Assembly: GCF_027359675.1 (NCBI RefSeq) | Contig: NZ_CP114786.1 | Coordinates: 4,810,501 to 4,874,500 of the forward strand | Source: Roseibium sp. Sym1 | Lineage (GTDB): Bacteria > Pseudomonadota > Alphaproteobacteria > Rhizobiales > Stappiaceae | Reading direction: 5' to 3' | DNA: 64,000 nucleotides | Shown: piece by piece, positions 46,987 to 63,614 of the stretch | How positions within the stretch are numbered: position 1 is the stretch's first letter | Layout: each line of letters starts with the position of its first letter | The notes under the pieces: model-generated | What the model saw: the letters and a program-made list of their open reading frames with translations, nothing else | Database searches by the model: none | Told to the model about the DNA's origin: nothing | Program-made: the position numbers and the translations under genes

Positions 46987-47271
46987 CTACGTCTTGAGAG
47001 CGCGGATGGCAGCGGTGATTTGGTTCAATGCAATAGACGCTCCATCTACAATACCAACCGCGAGCGGCAAGGTAATGCCATGATCTTCTGCCGCCTTCGC
47101 AGCTTCCTCCAGTGCCTGGTTACGGGCTTTCGCGTGTTCATTCTCCAACCACCTGCGAAAGTCACCTTCGCTCTGCCAAGCTTTCCAGCAAAGTCCATCA
47201 ACGAAACGGTTCACGACCTTCCGGTCACCTGTCTCCACCACCTCTACTACGTCTGTCTTGGTCTTGGACAT
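46987..47271 (-). CDS. Hypothetical element protein, 94 aa
   Basis: Last gene of the leftward array. The product is helical with a KARNQALEEAAKAAEDHG coiled-coil-like segment and a C-terminal alanine-rich helix. The ATG at 47271 is set by GAGGAG in the cassette GAGTCCTGAC just upstream. It resembles the small Ala/Glu-rich proteins common in Rhizobiales prophages; no function is known. The 154-base gap between it and the tRNA is AT-rich and shows nothing definite. Confidence 0.6.
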   Translation of the reverse strand: MSKTKTDVVEVVETGDRKVVNRFVDGLCWKAWQSEGDFRRWLENEHAKARNQALEEAAKAAEDHGITLPLAVGIVDGASIALNQITAAIRALKT

Positions 47272-47272
47272 G

Positions 47273-47440
47273 TCAGGACTCCTCGGAGCTTTCAAACGTG
47301 CGGAGCTGGTCATCCCAATCGCCCGGCTCCATCTCGGCTGGAAAGTGCTCTCTGTTCTCGCCTTGCTGCTGCGTTTGCCAGAAGCGATAAAAGCGGTTCA
47401 CAGCCTCATGCTGCTCGAAAATGAATTCTTCCAAGGTCAT
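47273..47440 (-). CDS. Hypothetical element protein, 55 aa
   Basis: Small acidic, aromatic-rich protein (MTLEEFIFEQHEAVNRFYRFW...). It starts after the cassette GAGTCCTGAG and ends in -ES because the next copy of the cassette encodes its last codons and stop. It is one base from the next start. Not recognised. Confidence 0.6.
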   Translation of the reverse strand: MTLEEFIFEQHEAVNRFYRFWQTQQQGENREHFPAEMEPGDWDDQLRTFESSEES

Positions 47441-47441
47441 C

Positions 47442-47588
47442 TCAGGACTCTTGCTGATACCAGGGCGCATGTTTCTGTTCGGTCTTTTTGACGTGTTTGC
47501 AGCTTGAGCACTTCAGGTCTTTGTGCTCCTCGCAATCTTCCTTGCCGCACTCACCGACCCACGCCAGAATGAATTTGCATTTACTCAT
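47442..47588 (-). CDS. Cysteine-rich microprotein, 48 aa
   Basis: A 48-residue product (MSKCKFILAWVGECGKEDC...) with six cysteines including a CSSC pair, likely a small zinc-binding fold. Both ends are defined by GAGTCCTGAG cassettes, and the protein ends in -ES like its two neighbours. Coding is supported by the exact cassette spacing and the tight tiling with adjacent genes. Confidence 0.6.
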   Translation of the reverse strand: MSKCKFILAWVGECGKEDCEEHKDLKCSSCKHVKKTEQKHAPWYQQES

Positions 47589-47589
47589 C

Positions 47590-47826
47590 TCAGGACTCCA
47601 AATCCTTCAGGGCGAACCGGCGCCAGACTTCCTTGACAAGCTGGTCCATCCAAGTAGTCAAAGCGGCGCTATCCGCATGATTGATCGTCTGAAGAAAGGC
47701 ATTCGTGGTCTTTCGAAGCGCTCCGTCTCCGATCATTCCTTTCTTCTCAAATTCGCAATAATCCTCGTGAATTGCGCAGCACTCTTCCCTTGAGAGTTGC
47801 GCAACAAATTTTCTGAGCGTGTTCAT
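47590..47826 (-). CDS. Hypothetical element protein, 78 aa
   Basis: Helical, soluble protein (MNTLRKFVAQLSREECCAIHEDY...) ending -LES within a GAGTCCTGAG cassette. The start has GGAGGAATGAG directly upstream. It lies one base from the next start. No family recognised. Confidence 0.6.
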   Translation of the reverse strand: MNTLRKFVAQLSREECCAIHEDYCEFEKKGMIGDGALRKTTNAFLQTINHADSAALTTWMDQLVKEVWRRFALKDLES

Positions 47827-47827
47827 C

Positions 47828-48082
47828 TCATTCCTCCTGAGCTGCTTGGAGCATGGCGCGGAGTTCGTCGGCTACTTCTTCATGTGCCCAACCGCCTGCA
47901 CCAATAGCCAAGTCGTTTATACAATTGGCGGCAGTCTTAAGGACATGTGTGGGCACCATCACCACCCCTGCTTCTTTGCAGTAAGCATGGATGGCGGCTT
48001 CGAGATTGGCCTTGGACGGTTGAAACATGCGATTTCCCCAAACGGCTTGCGCCGCCTCTATGGCCTTGGGATCAAGTTTCAT
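47828..48082 (-). CDS. Hypothetical element protein, 84 aa
   Basis: The product (MKLDPKAIEAAQAVWGNRMF...) has the layout of short phage proteins seen in Rhizobiales: an N-terminal helix, a central AYCKEAGVVMVP segment and an acidic C-terminal helix. The ATG overlaps the upstream stop (ATGA); an in-frame upstream start would intrude on that gene. Confidence 0.6.
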   Translation of the reverse strand: MKLDPKAIEAAQAVWGNRMFQPSKANLEAAIHAYCKEAGVVMVPTHVLKTAANCINDLAIGAGGWAHEEVADELRAMLQAAQEE

Positions 48083-48447
48083 GATCTGTCTCTTTCTAAA
48101 ATCTCGGTGTGGCAATCGATCATCTCGTAAGGATCTTCAAAGCCATTGCCATCGGGTTTGAAGCCTTCCTGCTCGTATTGTTCTTCACTGGCATTCTCTG
48201 CCATCTGAAGCGTTTTGAAGCCGTGACAGGTGAGGGACTTTTCACCGCGCACATAAGAAGTACCGCCGCCCTCATAGTCGTCTTCGACTTCAACCGCCGT
48301 CTTGTGGCAGGGAAAATCCGAATATGGACTGGATGCCATGAAGGCAAAGTCCGCGGCGCGATCAGGGTGAAGTGCGAGGGTGCCGGTATGAGCAAACGGA
48401 CACAGACCGCAACACTCTTTCATCCATGTCCTCTTTATCTCGGCCAT
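48079..48447 (-). CDS. Cysteine-containing element protein, 122 aa
   Basis: The N-terminus holds a CCGLCPF cluster followed by a later CH and CHGFK, which suggests a metal-binding domain. The C-terminal half is acidic. It overlaps the next gene by ATGA. A GTG at 48450 would add one residue. No family is recognised. Confidence 0.6.
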   Translation of the reverse strand: MAEIKRTWMKECCGLCPFAHTGTLALHPDRAADFAFMASSPYSDFPCHKTAVEVEDDYEGGGTSYVRGEKSLTCHGFKTLQMAENASEEQYEQEGFKPDGNGFEDPYEMIDCHTEILERDRS

Positions 48448-48461
48448 CACGCTTCCACTCG

Positions 48462-48722
48462 TTAATTCGATACTGTGAAGCCGGTCGCCATTCGCTGCAG
48501 CGGGGATGGTTTTGCGCCGGCCGGGCAGATCGCAAGACGTACTTCTTGCCCATCAATACTCACCGTCGCTCCATTGAGGTTCAGTCCAGGCTCGATGCCG
48601 AGGAACTGGAATGGCTCACCACACTGCGCGCACTTGATTGTGACGTCAGCCATGAACCGGCCGCTGTCCTTCAAGCGGTAAACATCGACGTTTGCGGAAA
48701 AATCTTCATGTTTGCAGGTCAC
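48462..48722 (-). CDS. Zinc-ribbon-like phage protein, 86 aa
   Basis: Contains CKH near the start and a CAQCGEPFQFLGIEPGLNLNG segment followed by GATVSIDGQEVRLAICPAG. This pattern recurs in small hypothetical proteins of Rhizobiales prophages. It probably binds zinc through the CxxC pair. Function unknown. Confidence 0.65.
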   Translation of the reverse strand: MTCKHEDFSANVDVYRLKDSGRFMADVTIKCAQCGEPFQFLGIEPGLNLNGATVSIDGQEVRLAICPAGAKPSPLQRMATGFTVSN

Positions 48723-48732
48723 GCGCTTAATC

Positions 48733-48945
48733 CTAGTCGAGAATTTGTTGGCGGAGAATTGTGCGGAGCTCGTCCGCAGTGATGGTCAGCTTGGCGCCTA
48801 TATCGATTGGTAGTTTTTGATCCTGCAGGCTGCAGACCTCATCAACGACGCCATCAATGATTGCCTCAATGAAATCAAGTGCCGCTTCCTCGCTCTCTTC
48901 CTTGAGATCGCCAAGACCGTATACAGTGAGTTCTGTTGGCTTCAT
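48733..48945 (-). CDS. Hypothetical acidic element protein, 70 aa
   Basis: Strongly acidic product (GLGDLKEESEEAALDFIEAIIDGVVDEV...), probably helical. GGAGGCACTC precedes the ATG. Such acidic microproteins can be DNA mimics or anti-regulators in phages, but nothing in the sequence proves this. Confidence 0.6.
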   Translation of the reverse strand: MKPTELTVYGLGDLKEESEEAALDFIEAIIDGVVDEVCSLQDQKLPIDIGAKLTITADELRTILRQQILD

Positions 48946-48981
48946 GAGTGCCTCCGTTTTTATGACTGGAATCGAACCTCT

Positions 48982-49566
48982 TTAGAGATCCATCGACACA
49001 GAAAGTTTGAAGCCGCCTGTTGGTTCGAATTCAGACCAGATCCTTTGTGTTGATTCCCATGGCTGTTTTTTTCGTATTTCGTTCTCGAGCATGATCAAAC
49101 TGAAGTGGCCGTTGATCAATCGCCGGCGAATACTATTTAAGAGAGCGTCGATCTCTTCAACTCGTTCTTGCGATCCGGGTTTCGAGGACGTAACCGTCCT
49201 ACCTTCGACCATTTCTCCGCCATGTCCGGCGCCGCTGTCGCTATCTGAACAGCATGGCACACCCTTGTTCGCCTGGACGCGCACCGCGCGGTCGTCCCAT
49301 AGCTCGATCATGCCGAAGTCTTTGGTGCAGGTGACAGCAAGGCGAGCGCCAATGTGCCTTTCTGCCCAGTCTTGAATGAACGAGATTTCTTCAGGATCAG
49401 CCCGCCAGGCTCTGGCGGTGAAGATGCGCACCTCGATACCTTTCGAGATCCATTCTTTGACCCGTTCAACCATAGGCGCGATCGGTTCGCCGATATGACC
49501 GGCACCAAGCCAACCTCCGTAGTGAGCGAGCGTTCCATCCAAATCGACACCTATCCATCCGGCCAT
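48982..49566 (-). CDS. HAD-superfamily phosphatase-like protein
   Basis: The 194-residue protein has HAD motif I DLDGTLA (residues 8-14) with both catalytic aspartates, a motif II-type threonine in IFTAR (about residue 50) and a late acidic pair in ELWDDRAV (about 88-95). The HAD core covers about residues 1-100, as in small phage HAD phosphatases. The remaining about 95 residues, with a cysteine pair and a helical tail, look like an added domain. A nucleotide or sugar-phosphate substrate is possible. Confidence 0.75.
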   Translation of the reverse strand: MAGWIGVDLDGTLAHYGGWLGAGHIGEPIAPMVERVKEWISKGIEVRIFTARAWRADPEEISFIQDWAERHIGARLAVTCTKDFGMIELWDDRAVRVQANKGVPCCSDSDSGAGHGGEMVEGRTVTSSKPGSQERVEEIDALLNSIRRRLINGHFSLIMLENEIRKKQPWESTQRIWSEFEPTGGFKLSVSMDL

Positions 49567-49587
49567 TTTTCAGGTTCCTTTTGTTGG

Positions 49588-49830
49588 TCACACTTTCCGC
49601 AACGAGAAAAACTCATCGGCTGCAACAATTGCGTGGCCAAGACTTTCAGCGAGGACGGGCGCCCACTCCTTCACTGGCTTGCGTGAATAGGTGTCTGCCA
49701 TGTGGCAGGCGGCAGTGAGCAGCAACATGGTGCCTTCCGCCGGATCGGTCCCCTCGCGCTCGCAGATTTCGCGGACCTTTTCCTCGATATCTAGGACTGC
49801 TTTGTGAGGATCAGAAATGAATGAAGTCAT
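49588..49830 (-). CDS. Hypothetical element protein, 80 aa
   Basis: Helical soluble protein (DPHKAVLDIEEKVREICEREGTDPAEGTMLLLTAACHMAD...). GGGGAT lies upstream of the start. It precedes the HAD gene's start by 21 bases on the same strand. Not recognised. Confidence 0.6.
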   Translation of the reverse strand: MTSFISDPHKAVLDIEEKVREICEREGTDPAEGTMLLLTAACHMADTYSRKPVKEWAPVLAESLGHAIVAADEFFSLRKV

Positions 49831-49842
49831 CAGATCAATCCC

Positions 49843-50052
49843 CTATTGAGCGACAAAAAACGCACCGAGATACGCCGCGTTGACCACGGAAACAATCCAA
49901 AGGAATATGCCCAAGACATACCCTGTTATGTCGCCACGTGGATTATTTTCGATATGGGCTTGCCAACCGGACGCTCGCCCAACTCCAACAGCCCCAGCGC
50001 CCATAATCAGGAAGATTATAGCTGGTACCACCCATTCAGAACTCACGGACAT
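49843..50052 (-). CDS. Membrane microprotein, 69 aa
   Basis: Two predicted membrane helices (about residues 8-28 and 46-66; VVPAIIFLIMGAGAVGVG and GYVLGIFLWIVSVVNAAYLGAFF) joined by a polar loop. The ATG at 50052 is preferred over longer frames because AAGGAGATGGCCT precedes it. Holin-like in size and topology, but no lysis genes are near. Confidence 0.6.
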   Translation of the reverse strand: MSVSSEWVVPAIIFLIMGAGAVGVGRASGWQAHIENNPRGDITGYVLGIFLWIVSVVNAAYLGAFFVAQ

Positions 50053-50066
50053 AGGCCATCTCCTTG

Positions 50067-50342
50067 TTAAGCCGCACGCAGCGTCGATAGATCGAAGTCG
50101 ACCACCTTGAAGTCGCGTTCCACCGCTCTCTCGAGGTCGATTGCTTTCAACATCAAGCCAGGATCCGTATGCCATTCGGTTGCTCCATGCCAAATATGGA
50201 GAACACGCAGGTGTCGTTCTGCCGTTTCGCCGCGCCAATTGGTGTAGTCGCAGCGGATATCGATCGGTGACTTGAGCAGGATCAGGATGTTGGCGAAAGC
50301 GATCTCTTCGTCGGCAAAAACTGGTTCTGGCATCTCTTCCAT
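50067..50342 (-). CDS. Conserved phage-type protein, 91 aa
   Basis: The sequence has DIRCDYTNWRGETAERHLRV, then HIWHGATEWH and AVERDFKVVDFD. This matches a small conserved protein often seen in Rhizobiales phages and plasmids, with pattern Y-NxRGE...R...I-xG-TEWH...ERDF. Its function is unknown. AAGGAGCGACAA precedes the start. Confidence 0.68.
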   Translation of the reverse strand: MEEMPEPVFADEEIAFANILILLKSPIDIRCDYTNWRGETAERHLRVLHIWHGATEWHTDPGLMLKAIDLERAVERDFKVVDFDLSTLRAA

Positions 50343-50352
50343 TTGTCGCTCC

Positions 50353-50847
50353 TTATCGAAGCATAGCGCGCGCCGGAAATTCCGGATGCGCGGCAATAAT
50401 GTCTTCCAGGAGCTCCTCTGTGATCCCTGCGGCAGATAGGCCGGCTTTCTCGCACATGGTCCGAAGAACCCTGAGCCCCAGGAAGGACCGGAAAAGCAGA
50501 TCGGTCTCAGCCGTTGTCGCCGGCAAGGTATCATTCAGCGCGTTGCGTACCTGCTGCGCTTCCATTTGCGTGAGCACGTTCTCTGGGATCGAACTTGGAC
50601 CTTCGACCGCGATCGTAATTTCCCGGTCGTGTTCGTTGACGAATTGCCGGACGACAGGCGCCGGCTCAGCACCTTGGATATCGCTCAAGTAGGGAACCCA
50701 GCCGGTGCATTCGTCAACCGACCGGCACATACTGCAACAGCCGTGCTCCATGTCGATGTGTGTAGCTTTCGAGCAGTCGGCGAAGCATGCCAATTTGGCG
50801 GCATGCTCTTCTTCAGGATTTCTCGCGACAAGGGGACTTATAGGCAT
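50353..50847 (-). CDS. Hypothetical element protein with cysteine cluster, 164 aa
   Basis: Residues 20-50 carry a cysteine cluster (CFADC, HGCCSMCRSVDEC) suggesting zinc binding. The C-terminal half is helical (EAQQVRNALNDTLPATTAETDLL...). GAGGAGCAC lies upstream. No family is recognised. Confidence 0.6.
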   Translation of the reverse strand: MPISPLVARNPEEEHAAKLACFADCSKATHIDMEHGCCSMCRSVDECTGWVPYLSDIQGAEPAPVVRQFVNEHDREITIAVEGPSSIPENVLTQMEAQQVRNALNDTLPATTAETDLLFRSFLGLRVLRTMCEKAGLSAAGITEELLEDIIAAHPEFPARAMLR

Positions 50848-50855
50848 AGTGCTCC

Positions 50856-51167
50856 TCAGATATCGATCTCTTCTTCCGCCGGTTCATCGAGCTCGGCTAG
50901 AGCCTCCAGACCGCGGATAAGGTCCGCCGCACGATCAGCGGCTAAGTCCGGAAAGAGCATCAGGAGTGTCTCGGACCTTGTAGGAGGAGATTCATCATCT
51001 CTGTTTTCGTCGATATAATGCAGGAACATCGACGCTTCTCCGTGAATGAAACTGGGGGAAGCCGGTTGAGTGTCTTCGTAGTACTCGATCCAATCCTCGG
51101 GGCTCATGTCGCACGGATCGATCCCGTTCTCTTCAGCCCACAAAGCAGCATCAGCGATTTCACCCAT
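50856..51167 (-). CDS. Hypothetical acidic element protein, 103 aa
   Basis: Very acidic protein starting MGEIADAALWAEENGIDPCDMSPEDWIEYY and ending in an acidic helix. The start at 51167 is set by GGGAGC; the longer frame runs antisense to nothing useful and lacks a site. Not recognised. Confidence 0.58.
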   Translation of the reverse strand: MGEIADAALWAEENGIDPCDMSPEDWIEYYEDTQPASPSFIHGEASMFLHYIDENRDDESPPTRSETLLMLFPDLAADRAADLIRGLEALAELDEPAEEEIDI

Positions 51168-51183
51168 TATCAGCTCCCATGAT

Positions 51184-51558
51184 CTAAGTAATCTCGAAGA
51201 CTTCAACACCAGCCTTGCGGGCACGGCGAACCATATCGGCTGTGCCATCACCACCAGGAAATGCAATAACGAGATCGATTCCCTTACCGAGCATCTTCTG
51301 GTTTCTAAGCGGCCCGGCTCGGCGGCCGTGCATCGACCACTTCGCCGGAACCGGATGAACACTAACTTCGCGTTTCCTATTCATTCCCCAGACGTGGGCG
51401 CAGGTGTCCGCGCCGCGGGAATTGCCGTGCCACAGATGTTGGATTGGGCGTTCCGCGTGTATCCTGTCCAGAGCCGCAAATACCGCGTCGTAGTCGTTGT
51501 AGTCCCGGCCACCGCAGACAATGACCCTAAGCCCGGAACTAGTGGTCTCTGCGGTCAT
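51184..51558 (-). CDS. DUF2493 (YspA/YpsA-like SLOG) nucleotide-binding protein
   Basis: The 124-residue Rossmann-like protein has the DUF2493 motifs: VIVCGGRDYNDY (about residues 12-23), HGNSRGADTCAHVW (about 44-57), the AGPLRNQKML block and the phosphate-binding AFPGGDGTADMVRRA near the end. SLOG proteins bind nucleotides or nucleotide-derived ligands; several serve in phage or defence systems. It overlaps the upstream gene (ATGA). Confidence 0.85.
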   Translation of the reverse strand: MTAETTSSGLRVIVCGGRDYNDYDAVFAALDRIHAERPIQHLWHGNSRGADTCAHVWGMNRKREVSVHPVPAKWSMHGRRAGPLRNQKMLGKGIDLVIAFPGGDGTADMVRRARKAGVEVFEIT

Positions 51559-52133
51559 GTATCGACACCAAGCGCTTTGCGTGCGTCAACCTGCCACCAG
51601 AGCAGATCGGTGGACTGCGTTAGGCAGGCGATTTTCTCCAGCGCTGACTGCATGCGTTTGTACCCAGATATCAGCGCCTGATGTTCATCTATTCCGTTGA
51701 TGTCAGTAGTGAACAACTGATCGATCAGCCTGCTCTCTTCAAAGTCGCGCGCGATATGGATTTCTCGGCCGTCAGCAAGTGCGATGCAGCCAGGACGAAA
51801 GCCATGTCCGCAACAAGAAGCTCGCGTCTTGATCCCGGACGATTGAAGGGCGTGGACGATCGACTCTATGCAGGGGTCGCAGCATCCCCCATCAGAAAGT
51901 GGCCGCATTTTCTTCTCGCGATCGTTTTGACAATTTGTGTCGCCACAGCCTGGCATGCGCAGACGGAATTTATTCGCTTCGGTCAAAAGCTCAGCTTCAA
52001 TTGCTGAAGCAATCTTCTCAGCCACAGCCTCAGATGAGATCGTAATTTGCCCCACGAACCGCCTTGCGATGGCAGCAGCTTGACGGACGACTTCGTTGTC
52101 GTTCGTGGTATTGGGTGAGGTTCCAGACTGCAT
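51555..52133 (-). CDS. Cysteine-rich element protein, 192 aa
   Basis: First gene of the distal leftward unit, about 170 bases downstream of a promoter-like sequence. Residues 60-120 contain paired cysteines (GCGDTNC, GGCCDPC, ASCCGHG) suggesting metal binding; the end (STDLLWWQVDARKALGVD) is a helix. GGAGGTCGA precedes the ATG at 52133; in-frame upstream residues have no site. Function unknown. Confidence 0.6.
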   Translation of the reverse strand: MQSGTSPNTTNDNEVVRQAAAIARRFVGQITISSEAVAEKIASAIEAELLTEANKFRLRMPGCGDTNCQNDREKKMRPLSDGGCCDPCIESIVHALQSSGIKTRASCCGHGFRPGCIALADGREIHIARDFEESRLIDQLFTTDINGIDEHQALISGYKRMQSALEKIACLTQSTDLLWWQVDARKALGVDT

Positions 52134-52487
52134 TCGACCTCCATAGGGAGCTACCACCTGTCGGTCTCTAACCGACCTATATCCCGCGTCCGGGAACCGT
52201 CTGGATTTAGGTGACGGCCTGCGAGGCGTTTCTAGTCTTGTCACAGTTCGAGGTGGCAACAACGGCGACCGACGAACCGGCCGATATCATTGATGTGAAT
52301 TAACGTTAGTGTAAAACGCAAAAAACGTCAATCTGCATTGGGTCGAAAAATCATCAGTGTCGTAAGCAATTTTAGAAACCTGATTTTGCAGCTGTCGCGA
52401 TAGGATATAATTCTCCGGAAGGTTGTTGTAATTCTTCTTTCGTGTCCGCCCCGGAGGTTTGAGTTTTGAGTTAGGTTGTCCTGCTAC
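52134..52487 (-). other. AT-rich gap splitting the leftward array
   Basis: No gene fits here. The gap contains the second leftward promoter candidate (52303-52331) and separates two blocks with different gene-junction cassettes. No clear terminator for the upstream block was found. Confidence 0.6.
52303..52331 (-). promoter_or_regulatory. Candidate leftward promoter 2 of the element
   Basis: Read on the minus strand: TTGACG (52331-52326), exactly 17 bases, TAACGT (52308-52303), then TAATTCA. The same layout, TTGACG-N17-TARCGTnnATTCA, occurs upstream of the repressor at 59494-59522. The preceding base pair AT is also shared (ATTGACG). It would drive the genes from 52133 leftward. Confidence 0.6.
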
Positions 52488-52907
52488 TTAGCGCTTTTCG
52501 CGCATCTCTTTCACACGCGCCAAAGCCTCTTCCTGCGGGTCACAAGGGTAGCCGGAATAAGGGCAGGTACCGTTCTCATCCGCGCAATCACGGCACATAG
52601 GAGACGGTCCGCCCTGGATCGCTTCACGCAGGGCTGAAAGCTCCTGCCAATGTCGCTTGCTCCGGTCTTCGACCTCGTCCAATGCCAGACGCAAACGCCT
52701 GATTTCTCGTGTCGCCCATGCGCCGGCTTCACCGCAGTTGTTCCAAAGTTCAGCCTCGAGAACCGCCTCCTGTGCGATCTTTTCCGCTGTTACGGCGGGG
52801 ATGTGATGCCGCTCTAGTCGAGCTTGGAATTCCGTTTTGTCGATTGGTACTGTCGGTAACTTTCCCAATACGATGACCTTTCTCAGCACGGGTTTCAGTC
52901 TGGCCAT
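52488..52907 (-). CDS. Hypothetical element protein, 139 aa
   Basis: Last gene of the proximal leftward block. It has a basic N-terminus, a helical centre (ALDEVEDRSKRHWQELSALREAI) and a cysteine-containing tail (CRDCADENGTCPYSGYPC). The ATG at 52907 overlaps the end of the upstream gene by 13 bases. Not recognised. Confidence 0.58.
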   Translation of the reverse strand: MARLKPVLRKVIVLGKLPTVPIDKTEFQARLERHHIPAVTAEKIAQEAVLEAELWNNCGEAGAWATREIRRLRLALDEVEDRSKRHWQELSALREAIQGGPSPMCRDCADENGTCPYSGYPCDPQEEALARVKEMREKR

Positions 52908-53092: not shown

Positions 53093-53102
53093 AACTGTGC
53101 CT

Positions 53103-53456: not shown

Positions 53457-53471
53457 AGGATTGGCCTTTCT

Positions 53472-53879: not shown

Positions 53880-53906
53880 ATAACACCTCTCTGTCCAAAC
53901 TGGCCT

Positions 53907-56947: not shown

Positions 56948-56962
56948 AACGGGCCTTTTCGA

Positions 56963-57289: not shown

Positions 57290-57303
57290 GACAGGGTCTT
57301 TCT

Positions 57304-57528: not shown

Positions 57529-57539
57529 CGTCCGGGCCT

Positions 57540-57686: not shown

Positions 57687-57703
57687 CGGCCGGGCCTTTC
57701 TGA

Positions 57704-57964: not shown

Positions 57965-57981
57965 CTGCCGGGCCTCCGTGA

Positions 57982-58164
57982 TTACGTTCCGAAGCCGCAA
58001 TAGTGAGCTTCGTCAGAAGCTGCGCGAACCGCGTGCTCTGCCTCTTTCACTTTTGCCTTCAGATCGTCTGAGATTTTCACTGAACTGGATGCTTCCAAAG
58101 CCTCGTGCAGTTCGCGAAGTTTGTGCTGAATTGTCAGCAGTCGTCTGACTGGTTGCACTGCCAT
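57982..58164 (-). CDS. Hypothetical coiled-coil microprotein, 60 aa
   Basis: One long amphipathic helix (LLTIQHKLRELHEALEASSS..., KAKVKEAEHAVRAASDEA), probably a coiled coil. It is bounded by two copies of the TAATCA...GGCCCG cassette. Confidence 0.6.
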   Translation of the reverse strand: MAVQPVRRLLTIQHKLRELHEALEASSSVKISDDLKAKVKEAEHAVRAASDEAHYCGFGT

Positions 58165-58179
58165 GGCGGGCCTTTCTGA

Positions 58180-58383
58180 TTACGTTTCGTAGAATACGCA
58201 TGAAGCGTTGTGCGATCCGCCGATTGGATAGCCACAGCATTGGTGATGCGTCGGGTTCTGCTCCCGCGCGATCTTGTCCATGATCGGGTCTGTCAGGGCG
58301 AAGACGACGGAACCTGGAACCGACCCACGACTGGCTTCAGCGCGAAGCTTATCCATCTGCGATTTCAACCATTCATTCTGCAT
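58180..58383 (-). CDS. Hypothetical element protein, 67 aa
   Basis: Helical N-terminus (MQNEWLKSQMDKLRAEASR) and a C-terminal HHQCCGYPIGGSHNASC cluster that could bind a metal. Its leader TAGAAAGCTTCAGC keeps only part of the cassette. Not recognised. Confidence 0.6.
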   Translation of the reverse strand: MQNEWLKSQMDKLRAEASRGSVPGSVVFALTDPIMDKIAREQNPTHHQCCGYPIGGSHNASCVFYET

Positions 58384-58394
58384 GCTGAAGCTTT

Positions 58395-58487
58395 CTAATT
58401 TAGCACCCTTATGGCGAATTTTATGATGAGCGCGAGCGCAACAACGACCAGCACATAAACCCCGATGGCAGTGAGAAAGGTCGCCAT
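58395..58487 (-). CDS. Single-pass membrane microprotein, 30 aa
   Basis: The product is one membrane helix (MATFLTAIGVYVLVVVALAL...) with a short basic end. Coding is supported by a perfect cassette (TAATCAGAAAGGCCCGGAC) before the ATG and a downstream gene 11 bases after its stop. Confidence 0.55.
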   Translation of the reverse strand: MATFLTAIGVYVLVVVALALIIKFAIRVLN

Positions 58488-58503
58488 GTCCGGGCCTTTC
58501 TGA

Positions 58504-58728
58504 TTACGCGCGCAGGCACCGCAATTTGGGCAGTGCTTTGCGCAGTGAAGTGATGGCGTCAACGCAGTCCGGACAGGTAACCAGGCGGCCGCCTTTCAGC
58601 GCCTTGGAATCCTGGCCCTCTTCCGAGCCGTCGCAGTCGAATGCGTCACCGCAAAAGAAGTATTCGCCCGAGCCAAGGGGTGAAATCGCGCAGATCCGCC
58701 CATCGAGACGTTGATAGAATTCCTGCAT
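58504..58728 (-). CDS. Hypothetical cysteine-containing element protein, 74 aa
   Basis: Short protein with FCGDAFDCDG and a CPDC pair (about residue 55), suggesting a small zinc fold. Bounded by CACAAAGGCCCGGCA upstream and TAATCAGAAAGGCCCGGAC downstream. Confidence 0.62.
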   Translation of the reverse strand: MQEFYQRLDGRICAISPLGSGEYFFCGDAFDCDGSEEGQDSKALKGGRLVTCPDCVDAITSLRKALPKLRCLRA

Positions 58729-58744
58729 TGCCGGGCCTTTGTGG

Positions 58745-58984
58745 TTAGGGTTTCTCAGGACCGCGCAAAGCGGCGTCGATAAGGTCAATTTCGGTCGTCA
58801 CAAAGACCGGCGTGCACGCCCGATTTTCAATATTGAAAATGGATGTCCTCACGCGGTTCAGCGCAGATCGCAGACGATCGATTTCGTCGGCTGCGCTTTC
58901 AAGCTCGTGCGCATCGATCGAAGCAGCCTTGTGCTGGCGCATCGTGTCGGCGCACTGCCGTAATCTCTGAGCGCTGTCGGACAT
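58745..58984 (-). CDS. Hypothetical helical element protein, 79 aa
   Basis: Helical protein (SAQRLRQCADTMRQHKAASIDAHELESAADEIDRLRSAL) in the pattern of small phage coiled-coil proteins. It is the first gene after the repressor on the leftward transcript. The ATG at 58984 follows GGTAGGCCCGTC. Confidence 0.62.
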   Translation of the reverse strand: MSDSAQRLRQCADTMRQHKAASIDAHELESAADEIDRLRSALNRVRTSIFNIENRACTPVFVTTEIDLIDAALRGPEKP

Positions 58985-59032
58985 GACGGGCCTACCCAAG
59001 TTCGTATCAGGCAAAAACTGGTTTGATGCGAA

Positions 59033-59416
59033 CTACGCCGTCGCTTCAATCATGCCTTTGGCTGACTGAAGAAGCGCCTGCCGGCACTTGGGCCCCAAGC
59101 GCTCGAACGATCGGAGTAAATCCAACGCACCTGGCACGTTCGCTGCGTCCATAATCGTCTGGTCTGCGACGGAAACATCGCCGGAAGATGTCAGCCCCTC
59201 GAAGAAAAAACCAGGCTCGACGCCGAACGCGTTCGCGATATCGAAAAGACGACCAGAGCCGATCCGATTGGTGCCTTTCTCATATTTTTGTATCTGCTGG
59301 AAGGTGATGCCGAGATGCTCGCCAAGCTTTTCCTGGCTCATGCCGAGCATAATGCGTTTCATGCGGACACGGCTTCCAACATGGATGTCCGCGGGGTTCG
59401 GTGTTCTATTTGTCAT
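59033..59416 (-). CDS. Cro/CI-family (XRE) transcriptional repressor
   Basis: The 127-residue protein has an N-terminal XRE helix-turn-helix (about residues 16-70; GSRVRMKRIMLGMSQEKLGEHLGITFQQIQKYEKGTNRI) and a helical C-terminal part without an S24/LexA peptidase motif, so it is not expected to self-cleave. The ATG at 59416 has GGAG about 9 bases upstream. It is the first leftward gene beside a divergent operator region and is the likely master repressor of the element. Similar short regulators also occur on chromosomes. Confidence 0.85.
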   Translation of the reverse strand: MTNRTPNPADIHVGSRVRMKRIMLGMSQEKLGEHLGITFQQIQKYEKGTNRIGSGRLFDIANAFGVEPGFFFEGLTSSGDVSVADQTIMDAANVPGALDLLRSFERLGPKCRQALLQSAKGMIEATA

Positions 59417-59493
59417 TGCATGTTTCTCCGTCAAATGAGGTTCAGCTCATGATCTCATGGATTTGTGGGCAACGTTTTTCACGTTATGAATGC

Positions 59494-59522
59494 ACGCTAA
59501 CATTGAAATATGATAACGTCAA
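59494..59522 (-). promoter_or_regulatory. Candidate leftward promoter 1 of the element
   Basis: On the minus strand TTGACG (59522-59517), 17 bases, TAGCGT (59499-59494), then GCATTCA. It should drive the repressor and the leftward array. The -10-like box is poor for sigma-70, so the conserved TARCGTnnATTCA may instead be a regulator site. Confidence 0.6.
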
Positions 59523-59532
59523 TTGCGTTGAC
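59518..59532. promoter_or_regulatory. Inverted repeat GTCAA-N5-TTGAC (putative operator)
   Basis: GTCAA (59518-59522) and TTGAC (59528-59532) form an inverted repeat that overlaps the -35 boxes of the leftward and rightward promoters, placed back to back with 5 bases between. A repressor dimer here would block both. Confidence 0.5.
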
Positions 59533-59556
59533 TTGCATTTTTTGAAAATATATAAG
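59528..59556 (+). promoter_or_regulatory. Rightward sigma-70-like promoter of the element
   Basis: TTGACT (59528-59533), a 17-base spacer and TATAAG (59551-59556) form a near-consensus promoter. The expected transcription start, about 59563, coincides with the ATG at 59562, so the first message may be leaderless. Confidence 0.7.
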
Positions 59557-59561
59557 AAGGC

Positions 59562-60107
59562 ATGCACTATGGATTGATTGCTAAAAGAAAAGACCTACCG
59601 TCTCTCCAAAGTCAACGTGAGGCACTTTCGGAATGCGAACGTATTTTGCCAGAACCTACGGAAGAGACATTGACTGCGATCCGCCCGGGATTCGAGTTGA
59701 CGGTATATTCTCTCAAATGTTTTGCGTTCGAGCGCTCCGCGGACTACCAGCCGCGCAAGGTAGCAATGGCATTGCTCGAAATTGTCGAAAAGCCTGGGGT
59801 GTCGATCAATGTGATCAATACCGCTGAAACATATAGGTTGCTCGAAGACGCTGGTAGATTGTCTCGCGACGTTCTAGACGCATTGGCAGGGGCCAGACAG
59901 GTACAAGCTGGTCGTGGTCGGCCGAAATGGCCGGCGCCCTCTCAGGACAGTATTGATGAAGCCCTGCTTATTTGGATGGACACCGTCAGGTATCGGACTG
60001 ACGAAGACGCTCGCAAGATTGTTAAGGCAAGATGTGCCTACAAATGGTCGAATGCCCGCATTCGTAAGTATCTGGGGCCGTCCGGTCGGAAACCAGGCAG
60101 GAAATAG
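59562..60107 (+). CDS. Degenerate serine-recombinase-like regulator
   Basis: The 181-residue protein can be aligned by eye with small serine resolvases: LQSQREAL for the early LDxQxxAL helix, YSLKCFAFERSADY for the LDRLGR region, EKPGVSINVINTAET for the GVSIRFIDDG strand, and a C-terminal GRGRPKW plus helix-turn-helix-like end. The catalytic serine of the RVS motif is replaced (AKRKDLPS) and the DRLGR motif is lost, so it is probably not a recombinase. Its position opposite the repressor suggests a DNA-binding, Cro-like regulator. This is inference from pattern only. Confidence 0.5.
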   Translation: MHYGLIAKRKDLPSLQSQREALSECERILPEPTEETLTAIRPGFELTVYSLKCFAFERSADYQPRKVAMALLEIVEKPGVSINVINTAETYRLLEDAGRLSRDVLDALAGARQVQAGRGRPKWPAPSQDSIDEALLIWMDTVRYRTDEDARKIVKARCAYKWSNARIRKYLGPSGRKPGRK

Positions 60108-60120
60108 AGGAGCCGAGGCC

Positions 60121-60312
60121 ATGGGCATCACTGATGGAACATACATTTGCAAACTCTGCGGCGAGTGGATGACGGGTTGCTCTCTATGTGGTCAAGCGCC
60201 GCTTATCGACAACAGGGAGAACCTGCGCCGACAGGAACAGGCCGAGCGAGACGGCGAGCGAGAACTGTGGCGGCAAAGCCAAGCCATCCGAAATTCAGCG
60301 AATAGCCGATAA
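60121..60312 (+). CDS. Zinc-ribbon microprotein, 63 aa
   Basis: N-terminal zinc ribbon (CKLCGEWMTGCSLCG, two CxxC pairs) and a charged helix (RENLRRQEQAERDGERELWRQ). The start is set by the right cassette GAGGAGCCGAGGCC just before the ATG. Confidence 0.65.
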   Translation: MGITDGTYICKLCGEWMTGCSLCGQAPLIDNRENLRRQEQAERDGERELWRQSQAIRNSANSR

Positions 60313-60330
60313 AACAAGGGAGCCAAAGCC

Positions 60331-60531
60331 GTGAAAGTGCTAGCATACAACGACCAATCCATGACTTGGCGTGAAGTTGTAAATGACGGTCGAATAGACT
60401 TCTTCGATCAGTTTGGTCGCCGTTATCGGTTGAAAGAGATGAGCAATGGACAACTGACGTTGTCGGCGTCTGATGGGCCTCTGGAAATGAAACCGAGTGG
60501 ATGCCATCGGATTGCATTTAAGACATCGTGA
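60331..60531 (+). CDS. Hypothetical element protein, 66 aa
   Basis: Strand-rich protein (VLAYNDQSMTWREVVNDGRIDFFDQFGRRYRL...) beginning at a GTG directly after the cassette AAGGGAGCCAAAGCC. Not recognised. Confidence 0.6.
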   Translation: MKVLAYNDQSMTWREVVNDGRIDFFDQFGRRYRLKEMSNGQLTLSASDGPLEMKPSGCHRIAFKTS

Positions 60532-60550
60532 TCATAAGGGAGCCGAGGCC

Positions 60551-60742
60551 GTGATTTCAGACCAAGAAATTGACGCTGTTGCCGAGCAGGTCAAGAGCTC
60601 TGTTTGGAGCGCGGCCGATGCCAATCTATCCAAGAACGCAAAAGATGTGGTGACTGCCGGCGAACTGTCAGCCATTGCGAAGGCAGCGTATTCCGCCGCG
60701 TATCAGGCATTGTTTCGTTTGAAAATTAATGAGCGAAAATAG
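60551..60742 (+). CDS. Hypothetical element protein, 63 aa
   Basis: Helical protein (SDQEIDAVAEQVKSSVWSAADANL...) starting at a GTG after AAGGGAGCCGAGGCC, a consensus copy of the right cassette. A longer frame upstream ignores the cassette. Not recognised. Confidence 0.6.
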   Translation: MISDQEIDAVAEQVKSSVWSAADANLSKNAKDVVTAGELSAIAKAAYSAAYQALFRLKINERK

Positions 60743-60752
60743 GAGCGGGCAC

Positions 60753-60899
60753 ATGCGATTGATCTATGACGGCCTCGAAAACTGCGCTTGGTGCGGATGT
60801 TATCTCGGACAGCGCGCGATCAATCAAATCGGCAGCAGCACGACGCAGCGGATTGTCTGTCAGCCTTGCTGGGATTCCAGAAATATCGAACGGAAATAA
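60753..60899 (+). CDS. Cysteine-rich microprotein, 48 aa
   Basis: A 48-residue product with CAWCGC near residue 11 and a CQPC pair near residue 37, a likely zinc knuckle. It starts after TAGGAGCGGGCAC, and its stop TAA is part of the next cassette (TAAGGGAGCCG). Confidence 0.6.
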   Translation: MRLIYDGLENCAWCGCYLGQRAINQIGSSTTQRIVCQPCWDSRNIERK

Positions 60900-60913
60900 G
60901 GGAGCCGAAGGCG

Positions 60914-61060
60914 ATGCGAGAGGGTGTCGATATCGCTGCGATGGTCTTGGTTGGGTGCCTCTTGATCCTGATTTCCTTCGTGCTCGCACCGAACGCCTAC
61001 ACATGCATTGGGTATTGTGACGATAGCGGTTCGTTTAACTTTATTCACGAAACCAAATAG
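60914..61060 (+). CDS. Membrane microprotein, 48 aa
   Basis: One membrane helix (about residues 7-27, DIAAMVLVGCLLILISFVLA) with a short polar, cysteine-containing tail. The ATG follows the cassette AAGGGAGCCGAAGGCG. Confidence 0.6.
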   Translation: MREGVDIAAMVLVGCLLILISFVLAPNAYTCIGYCDDSGSFNFIHETK

Positions 61061-61073
61061 GGAGCCTGAGACG

Positions 61074-61328
61074 ATGAATAAGCCCGTCACTAAATTCGAA
61101 GCTGAACGTGCGGAAGCGGTTCTCGCGCGCCTCCGGATCATCAAGGCCATGGTGCTGGAATGCGTTGAAGTCGTGCCAGTCAGCGAGGATGTTGAGTGCA
61201 GCGTGCACGAGGCTCTTGACGCATTGATTTCGGCCGTCAACGACAAGGCCGCCGATGCGACGTCGAAAGCAGAGGCGCTTGGCCTCGACCTCAACCCCTT
61301 CGATGCATTCGACAAACCAATATCATAA
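61074..61328 (+). CDS. Hypothetical helical element protein, 84 aa
   Basis: Acidic helical protein (KFEAERAEAVLARLRIIKAMVLECVEVVPVSEDVECSVHEALDAL). The ATG follows AGGGAGCCTGAGACG. Not recognised. Confidence 0.6.
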   Translation: MNKPVTKFEAERAEAVLARLRIIKAMVLECVEVVPVSEDVECSVHEALDALISAVNDKAADATSKAEALGLDLNPFDAFDKPIS

Positions 61329-61345
61329 ACAAGGGAGCCGAGATC

Positions 61346-61531
61346 GTGACCACGACGAATAGTATCTTGGACAAAATCACTGGCGGTAAGACATCGCAGA
61401 AAGCTTTCCGCACCATCGACCTTCAGGATGCGCGGACTGGCAAGCTGAAGCAATGTCGGCCCGCGCCGACCGATCCGCCAGCCCCTGAATGCGATTGGCG
61501 GCGCCTTCAGATTTCGAAAACAGAAGAATGA
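61346..61531 (+). CDS. Hypothetical element protein, 61 aa
   Basis: Short basic protein (TNSILDKITGGKTSQKAFRTIDLQ...) with a proline-rich C-terminal part, probably largely disordered. GTG start after the cassette AAGGGAGCCGAGATC. Confidence 0.58.
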   Translation: MTTTNSILDKITGGKTSQKAFRTIDLQDARTGKLKQCRPAPTDPPAPECDWRRLQISKTEE

Positions 61532-61548
61532 ACAAGGGAGCCGAGGCC

Positions 61549-61719
61549 GTGAAAGAGGAACGAGACGGCGGTGCGCCCATGAGTTGGCAATTGGCGTTTG
61601 TCGTTGTTGGTATTTACATTGCTGTTGCCGCCGTGCTGGTGGCTGAAAATATCACCTATGCCGACCGGCTCAGGGCCAAAATTGAAGCGGCTGAGTTTGA
61701 AAAAACGCCAGAGAACTGA
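61549..61719 (+). CDS. Membrane microprotein, 56 aa
   Basis: One membrane helix (about residues 13-33, LAFVVVGIYIAVAAVLVA) and a helical, charged tail. GTG start directly after a consensus cassette AAGGGAGCCGAGGCC. Confidence 0.6.
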   Translation: MKEERDGGAPMSWQLAFVVVGIYIAVAAVLVAENITYADRLRAKIEAAEFEKTPEN

Positions 61720-61731
61720 GGAGCCGAGACG

Positions 61732-61926
61732 ATGGCGAAGTGCGCATATTGCGACGAGCAGGCAATCACAGAGATTGACGGGGACAGCCTGTGCAAGCGT
61801 CACGCCGACGCCTGGTTGAGGGGCGAGGGTGAGGCTGCAGCCGAGTATCGTGACTGCGGCGGCGAGGGCTGGTTCAAGACCGACGATGGTGCGTTGGCGG
61901 TCTGCTACGGCGAAAAATGTCATTGA
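61732..61926 (+). CDS. Zinc-ribbon microprotein, 64 aa
   Basis: Cysteines in AKCAYCDEQAITEIDGDSLCKRHADAW form a likely treble-clef or ribbon (CxxC...CxxH); more cysteines occur at the end. The ATG follows GAGGAGCCGAGACG. Confidence 0.65.
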   Translation: MAKCAYCDEQAITEIDGDSLCKRHADAWLRGEGEAAAEYRDCGGEGWFKTDDGALAVCYGEKCH

Positions 61927-61943
61927 TCATAGGGGGCGAGGCT

Positions 61944-62204
61944 GTGGCTGATATCATTCGCATTGCTCCCCAGCTAACCGATGACGATATCGTCTCGTGG
62001 ATTGGCGACGGGGCGTTTACTTGTGGTGTGGCGATGCGCTTCGGCTGGGATATCAGCGATACGCGCCGCCGGCTGGATCGTTTGGCGCGCGCAGGGCGAT
62101 TGACCCGAAAGAAGATATCGAAGACGGCGTCTTGCCGCGTAACTGGCGGCCAGCATGTCGAGTGGGTGGACGCAACTGTCGCTGAAATTCAGCGTGACTC
62201 ATAG
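61944..62204 (+). CDS. Winged-helix-like element protein, 86 aa
   Basis: Residues about 15-65 read as a small winged helix (LTDDDIVSWIGDGAFTCGVAMRFGWDISDTRRRLDRLARAGRLTRKK), a pattern of phage DNA-binding proteins. The GTG at 61944 follows AGGGGGCGAGGCT; an ATG at 61917 would overlap the upstream gene. Confidence 0.65.
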   Translation: MADIIRIAPQLTDDDIVSWIGDGAFTCGVAMRFGWDISDTRRRLDRLARAGRLTRKKISKTASCRVTGGQHVEWVDATVAEIQRDS

Positions 62205-62215
62205 GGAGCCTGGCC

Positions 62216-62392
62216 GTGGCGACGACGCAAAACCTTGAAAAATTGGCGGCGATCATCGATCCGGATGCGTTTGAACCATTCGTCAAGACAGATGGTGCTG
62301 GTGTCTACTGGGGGCAGCGTCGGAACGATGCGCGCCGGAAGGCCCGCGAAGTTATTGCCGCGTTCAATTCGATAATTCTCGACGGAAACTGA
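62216..62392 (+). CDS. Hypothetical element protein, 58 aa
   Basis: Helical product (TTQNLEKLAAIIDPDAFEPF..., RRNDARRKAREVIAAFNSII) with GTG start after AGGGAGCCTGGCC. The second half resembles short phage helix proteins. The tight cassette spacing supports coding. Confidence 0.58.
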   Translation: MATTQNLEKLAAIIDPDAFEPFVKTDGAGVYWGQRRNDARRKAREVIAAFNSIILDGN

Positions 62393-62407
62393 GGAGCGCC
62401 GTGACGC

Positions 62408-62608
62408 ATGGACGAAGCAAGGCCGGGCATGGCGATAGCAGCTGACCCCAAGTTGGATTGGCCGCATGACACGAGCTACTGGAACAATTGCAGCCAGTGT
62501 GGTGTCCGGTTCATGGGGCCGAAGCGCGCGCCCGCTTGCTGGAAGTGTGTCGCCGACAGCACCAAGTCTTGGTGGAGTTCAAAATTCAATAAACCCAAAT
62601 TGAAATAA
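62408..62608 (+). CDS. Zinc-knuckle element protein, 66 aa
   Basis: Contains CSQCGVRFMGPKRAPACWKC (about residues 28-47), two CxxC pairs. The tail is basic (STKSWWSSKFNKPKLK) and may bind nucleic acid. GAGGAGCGCC lies upstream. Confidence 0.65.
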   Translation: MDEARPGMAIAADPKLDWPHDTSYWNNCSQCGVRFMGPKRAPACWKCVADSTKSWWSSKFNKPKLK

Positions 62609-62620
62609 CGGAGCGATATC

Positions 62621-62881
62621 ATGCATTTAGAAGGAGAAGACCTTAAACGCCTCCTGAATGAAATTCGGTCGCAGCTTCGCGGCGCTGGGTTCAACACTGT
62701 TGATGCGGTTTGCTACGGGTCTGTCGAGTCCGTCCGAAAGGCTCGTAACGAAGAGCAGGCCATTCTGGCGATTTCTGATGCGATCCCGCAGAAGATCTGG
62801 GATGAGTTCCAAGCCGATGAAAAAAGAGCGCAGGCTGATGAACTGCGGCGAAAGGCTTCAGAAATTGAAGCGTCAATCTAA
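62621..62881 (+). CDS. Hypothetical helical element protein, 86 aa
   Basis: Helical protein (EGEDLKRLLNEIRSQLRGAGF..., DEKRAQADELRRKASEIEAS) with a coiled-coil end. ACGGAGCGATATC precedes the ATG. Not recognised. Confidence 0.6.
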   Translation: MHLEGEDLKRLLNEIRSQLRGAGFNTVDAVCYGSVESVRKARNEEQAILAISDAIPQKIWDEFQADEKRAQADELRRKASEIEASI

Positions 62882-62892
62882 GGAGCCGATAC

Positions 62893-63303
62893 ATGAGCGA
62901 TTTGTACTACTCCGCCAAGTGCGGCGCATATTCAAAAAGCGTCTGTGTGGGCGTTGCCGCCCAAGAGCAGTGTGATCTGTGCGGCAACGCCGGTTTGGTG
63001 CTGCAGTGTGATACTTCTGGCGAAGAGTATGCATTCGCTCAGATTTGCAAAAATTGCATCGACCGCGCTTTTTCCTCGGGTGGCTTCAAGACCCCGGCAA
63101 GTGAGATTCAGACAGTGGCCTTCCAAGAGGGCGAAAACTGGATCGTTCAAGGTCTGGAGCGCGATATCTGCACCCAAGGTGTCACCGAGAACGCCGCTCG
63201 TCAGAATTTTGTTAACGCTGTCATTCTGGAAGGTCGGGAAGACGGAGGTCTTGAACGTATCGGACCCGCGCCAGCTCGTTTCTGGAAAATGAACCGAGAC
63301 TAA
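62893..63303 (+). CDS. Zinc-ribbon / HicB-like fusion protein, 136 aa
   Basis: The N-terminal half carries CDLCGNAG and CKNC cysteine pairs (about residues 27-57), a zinc-binding module. The C-terminal half (ENWIVQGLERDICTQGVTENAARQNFVNAV..., ending PAPARFWKM) reads like the HicB-type RNase-H-like fold of antitoxins and small phage proteins. No HicA toxin gene is adjacent. The start follows AAGGAGCCGATAC. Confidence 0.62.
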   Translation: MSDLYYSAKCGAYSKSVCVGVAAQEQCDLCGNAGLVLQCDTSGEEYAFAQICKNCIDRAFSSGGFKTPASEIQTVAFQEGENWIVQGLERDICTQGVTENAARQNFVNAVILEGREDGGLERIGPAPARFWKMNRD

Positions 63304-63317
63304 GGAAGGTGACACCG

Positions 63318-63614
63318 ATGAAAAGCGTTTGTAAGAGGATAGCCGACATGCTGCCGGACATGTCTGTTTGCGGTTTTCAATGGCCCGTGCGCTTTGGCCG
63401 GTTGAAAACCCTGGAAGATCATAATCGCTACAGAGGCTCAGCATTAGAGAAACTGGACGCTGACCGCGCGAGCCCGCAACCGAACGGAATAGCATGTCCG
63501 GAATGCGAGGCTGAATTGGTGGACACCGATCCGACAGGCGTTCTTCTTTCAAACCCGCCTAAGAAAAGGATTTCTTGTCTGGCGTGCGGCTATCTCGGTT
63601 ACCGAATTTATTAG
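63318..63614 (+). CDS. Zinc-ribbon element protein, 98 aa
   Basis: Last gene of the rightward array. A basic N-terminal half is followed by a zinc ribbon (CPECEAELVDTDPTG, then ISCLACGYLGYRIY). AAGGAAGG precedes the ATG at 63318. It ends 12 bases before the end of a convergent gene. Confidence 0.65.
   Translation: MKSVCKRIADMLPDMSVCGFQWPVRFGRLKTLEDHNRYRGSALEKLDADRASPQPNGIACPECEAELVDTDPTGVLLSNPPKKRISCLACGYLGYRIY

Follow-up and report, generated by a model that had tools for sequence, protein, structure and literature searches.

At the right-hand end of a 64,000-nucleotide stretch of the chromosome of Roseibium sp. Sym1 (contig NZ_CP114786.1, positions 4,810,501 to 4,874,500; hereafter the window) lies a region built mostly of very small genes, which form two opposed arrays around a regulator gene. 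This region, referred to here as the microgene arm (46987-63614), is part of a large prophage, and many of its genes are preceded by short words, the linkers; one of these words, and a relative of another, recur before mostly different genes in a prophage of another Roseibium species. Coordinates past 64000 continue the window numbering to the right, and the host genome (7.26 Mb) is designated G000. A host protein from the flank has its closest named matches in Roseibium (90% identity, R. sediminicola). Genes were called by a self-trained finder with two runs pooled, and start codons are approximate. The arm contains 55 genes, 41 leftward and 14 rightward; 44 encode fewer than 110 amino acids (aa), the median is 80 aa, and the coding fraction is 86%. 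When open reading frames (ORFs) that reach 40 aa and have a Shine-Dalgarno-like site were counted, the left arm gave 35 in the sense and 7 in the antisense direction, compared with 12.7 +/- 3.2 sense ORFs (maximum 22) in 200 dinucleotide shuffles; the right arm gave 17 sense and 1 antisense, with 4.3 +/- 1.8 (maximum 9) in shuffles. The strand bias and the shuffle controls show that the arrays exceed chance. An earlier note on this DNA described tiny, tightly packed genes, which is borne out, and counted 41 leftward and 16 rightward genes, of which the first number is reproduced and the second falls to 14. It also placed the GC content of the arm below that of both flanks. The arm has a GC content of 0.52-0.56 and the DNA to its left mostly 0.59-0.64, with dips to 0.54-0.58 near 8-10 and 18-24 kb, so the statement holds on that side, where the flank itself dips; on the right it does not, since low values continue past 63.6 kb to about 161 kb.

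Two identical 49-bp attachment (att) cores, one over the 5' half of a tRNA-Lys gene and the other at 161374-161422, enclose 114,584 bp of lower GC (46790-161373). They represent the sole direct repeat of at least 14 bp between 46701-46990 and 47001-325500. Of the two candidate arm-type sites for the integrase, AATTTACAG is present in three copies in 325 kb (46922, 161285, and 161337), all within ~90 bp of an att core, and AATTTACA in five, one of them away from the cores (119910). Host sequence continues uninterrupted across the core at the tRNA-Lys site in 31 of 44 other species of the genus; in the remaining 13, the match is at or near the tRNA only and is uninformative on site occupancy. 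The unbroken site in 31 species rules out the arm as conserved host synteny, the finding that the earlier note had named as speaking against its proposal. Prophage genes number 184 in one run and 187 in the pooled set on which our counts are based. They encode RecT, a primase-helicase, and DnaA (67.8-100.9 kb), terminase, portal, and an HK97-type capsid (116-123 kb), and also a PD-(D/E)XK protein, sigma-70, Ro60, an S78 protease, a tape measure, and tail proteins, while 24 tRNA genes lie at 102.3-110.0 kb. From its sequence, the element reads as an apparently complete siphophage-type temperate phage of 114.6 kb, integrated in the 5' half of tRNA-Lys. Its integrase, att repeat, and structural genes support the earlier assignment of the arm to an early or accessory prophage region. 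The same note recognised no replication, integration, or packaging gene; these genes seemed missing because the window ends before them. The extension beyond 64 kb that it advised reveals an integrase at 64853, followed by RecT, primase-helicase, DnaA, terminase, portal, and capsid.

The most distinctive feature of the arm is the DNA immediately before its start codons, where 27 of the 55 genes carry one of three words, set by block and strand (Table 1). Within 24 nt upstream, AGGCC was found in 15 of the 19 A-block genes and in 10 of 168 others (Fisher 2e-12), and GGCCC in 14 of 19 and 2 of 168, respectively. GAGCC precedes 9 of the 13 right-arm genes from 60121 and 5 of 174 others (Fisher 2e-9), whereas GAGTCCTGA precedes all three of the last leftward genes and none of the 184 others called. 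No word is clearly common to the 18 genes at 47.6-54.4 kb. Each linker combines a Shine-Dalgarno-like half (AGAAAGG or AAGGGAG) with a conserved tail (CCCG or CCGAGG), and at 9 of the 19 A junctions, by coordinates, the TAA stop of the preceding gene supplies its first three letters.

Table 1. Features of the microgene arm and of the adjoining prophage end (window coordinates).
Feature	Position	Strand	Remarks
tRNA-Lys(UUU), integration target	46757..46832	-	ARAGORN and Rfam RF00005; 3' part is host DNA
attL core, 49 bp	46790..46838	.	over 5' half of tRNA-Lys; identical attR at right end
Candidate integrase arm-type sites	46922..46950	+	AATTTACAG at 46922, AATTTACA at 46943
Leftward array	46987..58984	-	40 microgenes, 41 counting the regulator
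Third-linker sub-block, 3 genes	46987..47608	-	GAGTCCTGA before start codon
A-linker sub-block, 19 genes	54397..59010	-	consensus TAATCAGAAAGGCCCG(nn)ATG or close form
Orphan A-linker	56139..56156	-	no called ORF behind; possible scar of a lost gene; sequence read-out
Microgene with in-phage paralogue	58180..58383	-	paralogue 143941-144144(+); DNA comparison
XRE regulator	59033..59416	-	PHROG repressor families; 53% identical to host chromosomal paralogue
Two operator-like sites	59471..59529	.	AACGTTTTTCACGTT (59471-59485), AACGTCAATTGCGTT (59515-59529); 44 bp apart
Promoter-like TTGACT-N17-TATAAG	59528..59556	+	by eye; overlaps second operator; absent from consensus-scan list
Rightward array	59562..63614	+	14 microgenes
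B-linkers, within rightward array	60121-63614	+	9/13 genes, consensus AAGGGAGCCGAGGCC(A/G)TG
338-aa gene closing the arm	63626..64642	-	window part to 64000; no PHROG match; methyltransferase-like by eye only
Integrase	64853-65932	-	~850 bp past window edge, after the 338-aa gene

The specificity of these words was assessed with regular expressions and by ranking start-linked 7-mers. The A expression matched 12 times in the 16.8-kb arm, 0 times in 79 kb of phage core, and 12 times in 9 kb of the prophage in genome G031, described below; the B expression matched 10 times in the arm and once at 143-161 kb. Three relatives in terms of the large terminase subunit, TerL (G050, G051, and G054; terminase 65-66% identical; 328 kb), contain no A match, and inheritance of the A word with the TerL lineage is rejected on that ground. 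Among the nine top start-linked 7-mers of each source, AGGCCCG ranks high in the arm and in the G031 prophage only, and is not found among those of the three TerL relatives or of two host stretches. The counts and the ranking show that the A word is specific and the B word less so: an over-represented asymmetric start word is clear for A and less clean for B, which is also found upstream of host genes. A strict A pattern searched in 87 genomes of the family matched only in G000, G031, and G092, where it precedes a 501-aa frame without an array. Pattern scans of IMG/VR returned 18 loci, of which only L092, L093, and L100 had at least four A-type starts by a loose expression, some of them chance-like; on the L092 contig (G474), three strict A-linkers lie at the cut end and a fourth lies elsewhere. 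The TerL relatives show other start-linked words, some not Shine-Dalgarno-like (GTGGCAC, GGAGATC, CCTAACC). CCACCACAGAAAGGA precedes several genes of the G474 prophage, G054 has CCTAACCG, and G051 has GGAGATC. Phages of this order may commonly carry such start-proximal words.

The genes themselves are far less constant. A search of 50,697 phage records with TerL gave 1445 matches, none reaching 60% identity (~31% for the best among the matches listed), and one of 5.8 billion proteins gave 283. Of the 119 non-self matches listed from the latter, 90 are 47-71% identical, and those named at this level include Mesorhizobium and Shinella; viral records of 101-113 kb also carry a related TerL. Within the genus, a close TerL was found only in G000, three other species having TerL at 25-27%. 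When G050, G051, and G054 were compared with the phage, only 2 of the 55 arm proteins matched, namely the regulator (38%, G050) and one protein over a third of its length; matches were obtained for 51 of 132 genes outside the arm and for 19 of 22 in the structural stretch. Nothing close to the arm was found in the 50,697 phage records, and in an IMG/VR search one arm protein gave one locus and another none. By these sequence comparisons, the arm is the most variable part of the phage, though other variable parts exist.

The prophage of G031, which belongs to another species of the genus, occupies ~49.4-104.3 kb of contig 22. It is bounded by a 39-bp att repeat with two mismatches in the 5' half of tRNA-Cys and encodes its own integrase, which shares 27% identity over 198 residues with the present one. 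Its P22-type portal (E 4e-195) and T4-type terminase make its virion genes, by profile, unrelated to those of this phage; both phages encode RecT. At one end it has two arrays, the leftward one with A-linkers and the rightward one with AAGGAGCGCCGG-like linkers. Within a 100-kb stretch of G031, 9 of the 187 genes of this phage find a match at E 1e-3, a comparison that short proteins can escape. Two matches, to 61346 (43%) and to 158464 at the far end of this phage (68%), fall inside the G031 arrays; 160135 and 160416 (32%) match just beside them, and the other five, including part of 59033, lie elsewhere. In both phages, the circular order runs 160135-like gene, 160416-like gene, leftward array, rightward array, and integrase, with attP placed differently. 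At the DNA level, the two arms have eight exact matches of at least 15 nt at seven sites (0.2 expected with uniform letters), and linkers make up six of the seven, the orphan linker included; the core of this phage and the G031 arrays share three such words (1.0 expected). Exact identities of 21 and 20 bp, covering the linker and the first codons, join genes of the two phages without detected homology. In addition, a 251-aa protein without PHROG match (69971-70726) is 67% identical to G031 C22:63444-64160.

Three single cases illustrate the separation of genes from their linkers. In the first, a piece of a viral contig (L093) carries, all in one direction, relatives of 47442, 49843, 50067, 53103, and 150285 found by search, and of 54672 recognised by eye. 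Its arm-gene order is 47442, 53103, 49843, 54672, 50067, while the transcription order here is 54672, 53103, 50067, 49843, 47442; the relatives of 47442, 49843, and 50067 have A-like words in L093 and other or no words here. In the second case, the DNA homology of the paralogues 58180 and 143941 extends from the start codon past the stop and into the next linker, the upstream linkers being different. The third case is the orphan A-linker at 56139-56156. Together, these cases suggest exchange at the joints, and the linkers seem tied to the array more closely than to the gene.

We consider it quite probable that the region is a variable accessory arm of a 114.6-kb temperate phage, whose linkers serve as ribosome-binding sites and probably also as homologies for recombination. 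The repression, ribosome binding, and recombination that we infer would proceed as follows. The XRE repressor heading the leftward array, which may belong to the PraR/CdxA family, probably binds the two central operators and controls both arrays. The + strand of 325 kb contains four copies of the motif AACGTN5RCGTT, at these two sites and at 71143 and 143260 (repeat search). Once the repressor is released, long mRNAs would be made, from which 27 of the 55 microgenes would be translated using a shared linker. The linkers would in addition offer 15-21-bp homologies at which phage recombination, for which RecT of both phages is a candidate, may swap, duplicate, or drop single ORFs; this role is probable because linkers are nearly the sole sequence common to two otherwise unrelated arrays.

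Several observations weigh against this reading. More than half of the arm genes (28 of 55) carry none of the three words. The A expression also matches five times in 210 kb of host DNA and once at 143-161 kb, and the B expression is weak alone, with 3 matches in the core, 4, 4, and 3 in the TerL relatives, and 8 in 210 kb of host DNA; AGGAGCC is start-linked at four genes of a 163-kb host stretch (0.17 expected). A loose A pattern matched in 190 of 397 genomes of the order, with no dense cluster among the places listed, and is too loose to discriminate. In L093, the relative of 50067 has an uncertain start, 60 nt from the expected place, and a similar word is kept by 53103 (A-like, here and in L093) and by 61346 (B-like, here and in G031). 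Variability is shared by 138-161 kb, where 7 of 44 genes match a relative. As for the proposed control, the host XRE paralogue has no AACGTN5RCGTT site nearby, where the motif was sought. The -10 element of the promoter-like sequence ends five bases before the called start 59562, indicating that the promoter or the start call is probably wrong, or that the mRNA is leaderless. In a scan of the arm as a whole, promoter-like and terminator-like sites were no commoner than in shuffles, and promoter-like sites were in fact fewer (5 in the arm and 9.1 in shuffles).

The strongest alternative, to which we give a little less than an even chance, is that the linkers are translation signals only, specific to the array and perhaps read by a phage factor. 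Selection would then reshape the starts of incoming genes, and gene turnover would result from ordinary illegitimate recombination. Gaps of 11-23 nt at 15 of 18 A-block junctions and of 10-17 nt at 10 of 12 right-arm junctions fit ribosome-binding sites, and the start-associated sequences of Cluster K phages were proposed to act in translation initiation (PMC3203893). However, the identities of 21 and 20 bp between non-homologous genes exceed what a ribosome-binding site needs, an orphan linker exists, and the homology of the paralogues stops at the start codon on one side and enters the next linker on the other. A dual role of the linkers, in translation and recombination, can be carried further to a plug-in microgene bank in temperate phages of the genus, in which strand-specific linkers would be inherited and interchangeable ORFs swapped at them by RecT-type recombination across unrelated virions. 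We regard this extension as tentative, possible rather than probable.

The centre of the arm was described in the earlier note as a repressor/operator region and CI/Cro switch. One XRE regulator and two operator-like sites are indeed present, and the left gene is a regulator; the pairing with Cro does not stand, given that the rightward gene 59562 facing it has no PHROG match. A lambda-type switch, with two opposed helix-turn-helix (HTH) regulators sharing operators, is rejected at 59 kb, where only the left gene matches regulators. It could still be argued that the arm is a canonical lambda-like early region, the 59-kb regulator being the phage CI and the arrays the PL and PR operons, and the divergent layout, the two operator-like sites, and the promoter-like overlap agree with this. 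We find it improbable, since, besides the unmatched gene 59562, a second repressor at 71546-72259 matches phrog_4 over residues 3-232 of its 237 and faces a gene (72389-72700) with a weak DNA-binding family match. Moreover, no replication family appears among the listed matches of the 55 arm proteins (25 of 27 PHROGs and all 7 Pfam families).

It seems very unlikely that the arm and integrase form a separate satellite or island inserted into, or fused with, a larger phage, even though only 2 of the 59 genes of 46987-66847 match a relative, another tyrosine recombinase was found in three of six relative records, and the integrase matched none of ten in a search run without a positive control. 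A single att pair spans 114.6 kb including the structural genes, with no other direct repeat of at least 14 bp from the attL region, and G031 keeps the circular gene order despite a different place of attP, as expected of an ordinary phage module. A phage satellite, with its own att pair and no structural genes, is rejected here as the leading reading, since one att pair encloses structural genes.

Small phage genes of this kind are usually guessed to act in host takeover or counter-defence. Searches of the 55 arm proteins in Pfam detected only HTH domains, one DUF7352, and one YAcAr (SLOG), and those in PHROGs 27 families, mostly regulator models and unknowns among the 25 listed. With defence-gene profiles, only regulator models matched (HTH_VI, RmrA, capH). 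The protein of 53103-53456 has 47 other homologue clusters, and in comparison with the L093 copy its gene differs at 15, 20, and 49 sites in codon positions 1, 2, and 3. A structure was predicted for this one of the 55 arm proteins, from a family of 48 sequences, with a predicted local distance difference test (pLDDT) score of 88; one uncharacterised phage protein matches the model, and no PDB entry does so at E 0.001 or better. That the ORFs are mostly spurious, as the lack of Pfam matches for most arm proteins might suggest (seven families of one or two members, five being HTH models), can practically be dismissed for the arrays as a whole in view of the strand bias, the dinucleotide shuffles, and the codon-position bias, homologues, and confident fold of 53103-53456, although single ORFs may individually be false.

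Several features outside the arm were also observed. The Ro60/TROVE gene (106968-108560) sits within the 24-tRNA array, with the sigma-70 gene (109986-110801) just after it; with a Ro protein among tRNAs, Y-like RNAs are worth looking for. The phage DnaA (99464-100885) has its N-terminal, ATPase, and DNA-binding domains, and 47 phage records match it, all below 60% identity (best among the matches listed ~34%). By eye, 95392-99467 encodes a thymidylate synthase, a DnaJ-like, and an adenylosuccinate-synthetase-like protein, the last of which may bear on modified phage DNA. Upstream of tRNA-Lys (by eye, 46757-46990), a phage-side TTGCGT-N17-TAGACA stands in place of the host TTGCAA-N17-TAAACA; as the insertion replaces this upstream DNA, the phage may bring its own tRNA promoter. 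Elsewhere on the chromosome, an integrase-like frame with an internal TAG (G000:C1:4663393-4663845) and eight further integrase matches outside the prophage were found, which belong to other mobile elements.

Among known systems, the linkers most resemble the Start-Associated Sequences described in Cluster K mycobacteriophages (PMC3203893) and Microbacterium Cluster EF phages (PMC7302621), which are short, unusually conserved asymmetric words at the ribosome-binding-site position. GGGATAGGAGCCC and GGGAAAGGACCCC resemble GGGAGCC. Cluster K words are described as mostly of one orientation and confined to non-structural genes (PMC3203893), and in Cluster EG a start-linked inverted repeat is reported as kept across otherwise diverged right ends (PMC7302621). 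In contrast, the choice among three words depends here on block and strand, the majority of junctions within a block have one, the preceding stop forms part of the word in 9 of the 19 A junctions, and phages with unrelated structural genes in an alphaproteobacterial host have the A word in common. Linked 17-bp inverted repeats (ESAS) do not appear among the repeats listed, no search aimed at them having been made. The linkers, as start-proximal words of 15-21 nt, also differ from the PeSL cassettes of T4-type phages. PeSLs reportedly (Arbiol 2010 and Comeau 2014 are said to be the sources) join a promoter and a terminator stem-loop. Such repeated intergenic motifs are said to mediate gene shuffling between phages (PMC4503421).

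The ORFanage of S-PM2 is a set of 33 ORFans found in this one phage and lacking in its close relatives (PMC4503421). The likeness is a block of genes absent from close relatives; the difference is that S-PM2 is a lytic cyanophage, for which the part of the account consulted reports no linkers. Elements that insert in the 5' part of a tRNA gene have been described and are called less frequent (PMC6563490, citing Zhao and Williams 2002). The present att core likewise spans the 5' half, so that DNA upstream of the tRNA is newly provided by the element; it is distinctive that two prophages, at tRNA-Lys and tRNA-Cys, both have microgene arms. XRE regulators PraR/CdxA and phage TgrL are described from alphaproteobacteria and their phages, tgrL being an early phage gene (PMC10688885), whereas the present gene heads a microgene array and its binding site is predicted. 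In the open-licence literature, no report was found of the arm, the linkers, or such a Roseibium prophage; within that scope, the combination of opposed arrays, strand-specific linkers common to phages with unrelated virions, and near-full gene turnover likewise did not turn up.

These findings point to a lineage of large temperate phages of Hyphomicrobiales, this one of 114.6 kb and viral records reaching 113 kb; a search of 50,697 phage records with its terminase found nothing close. By what means phages acquire and shed their many tiny genes is a long-standing question, and here the joints are visible and vary with array and strand. Because they are common to two otherwise unrelated phages while most genes are not, exchange at defined joints can be tested directly. 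Linkers of this kind also allow genuine start codons and entire microgene arrays to be located when homology gives no guidance. If the microgene bank proves true, it would represent a counterpart of an integron array that is based on linkers and operates without a dedicated integrase.

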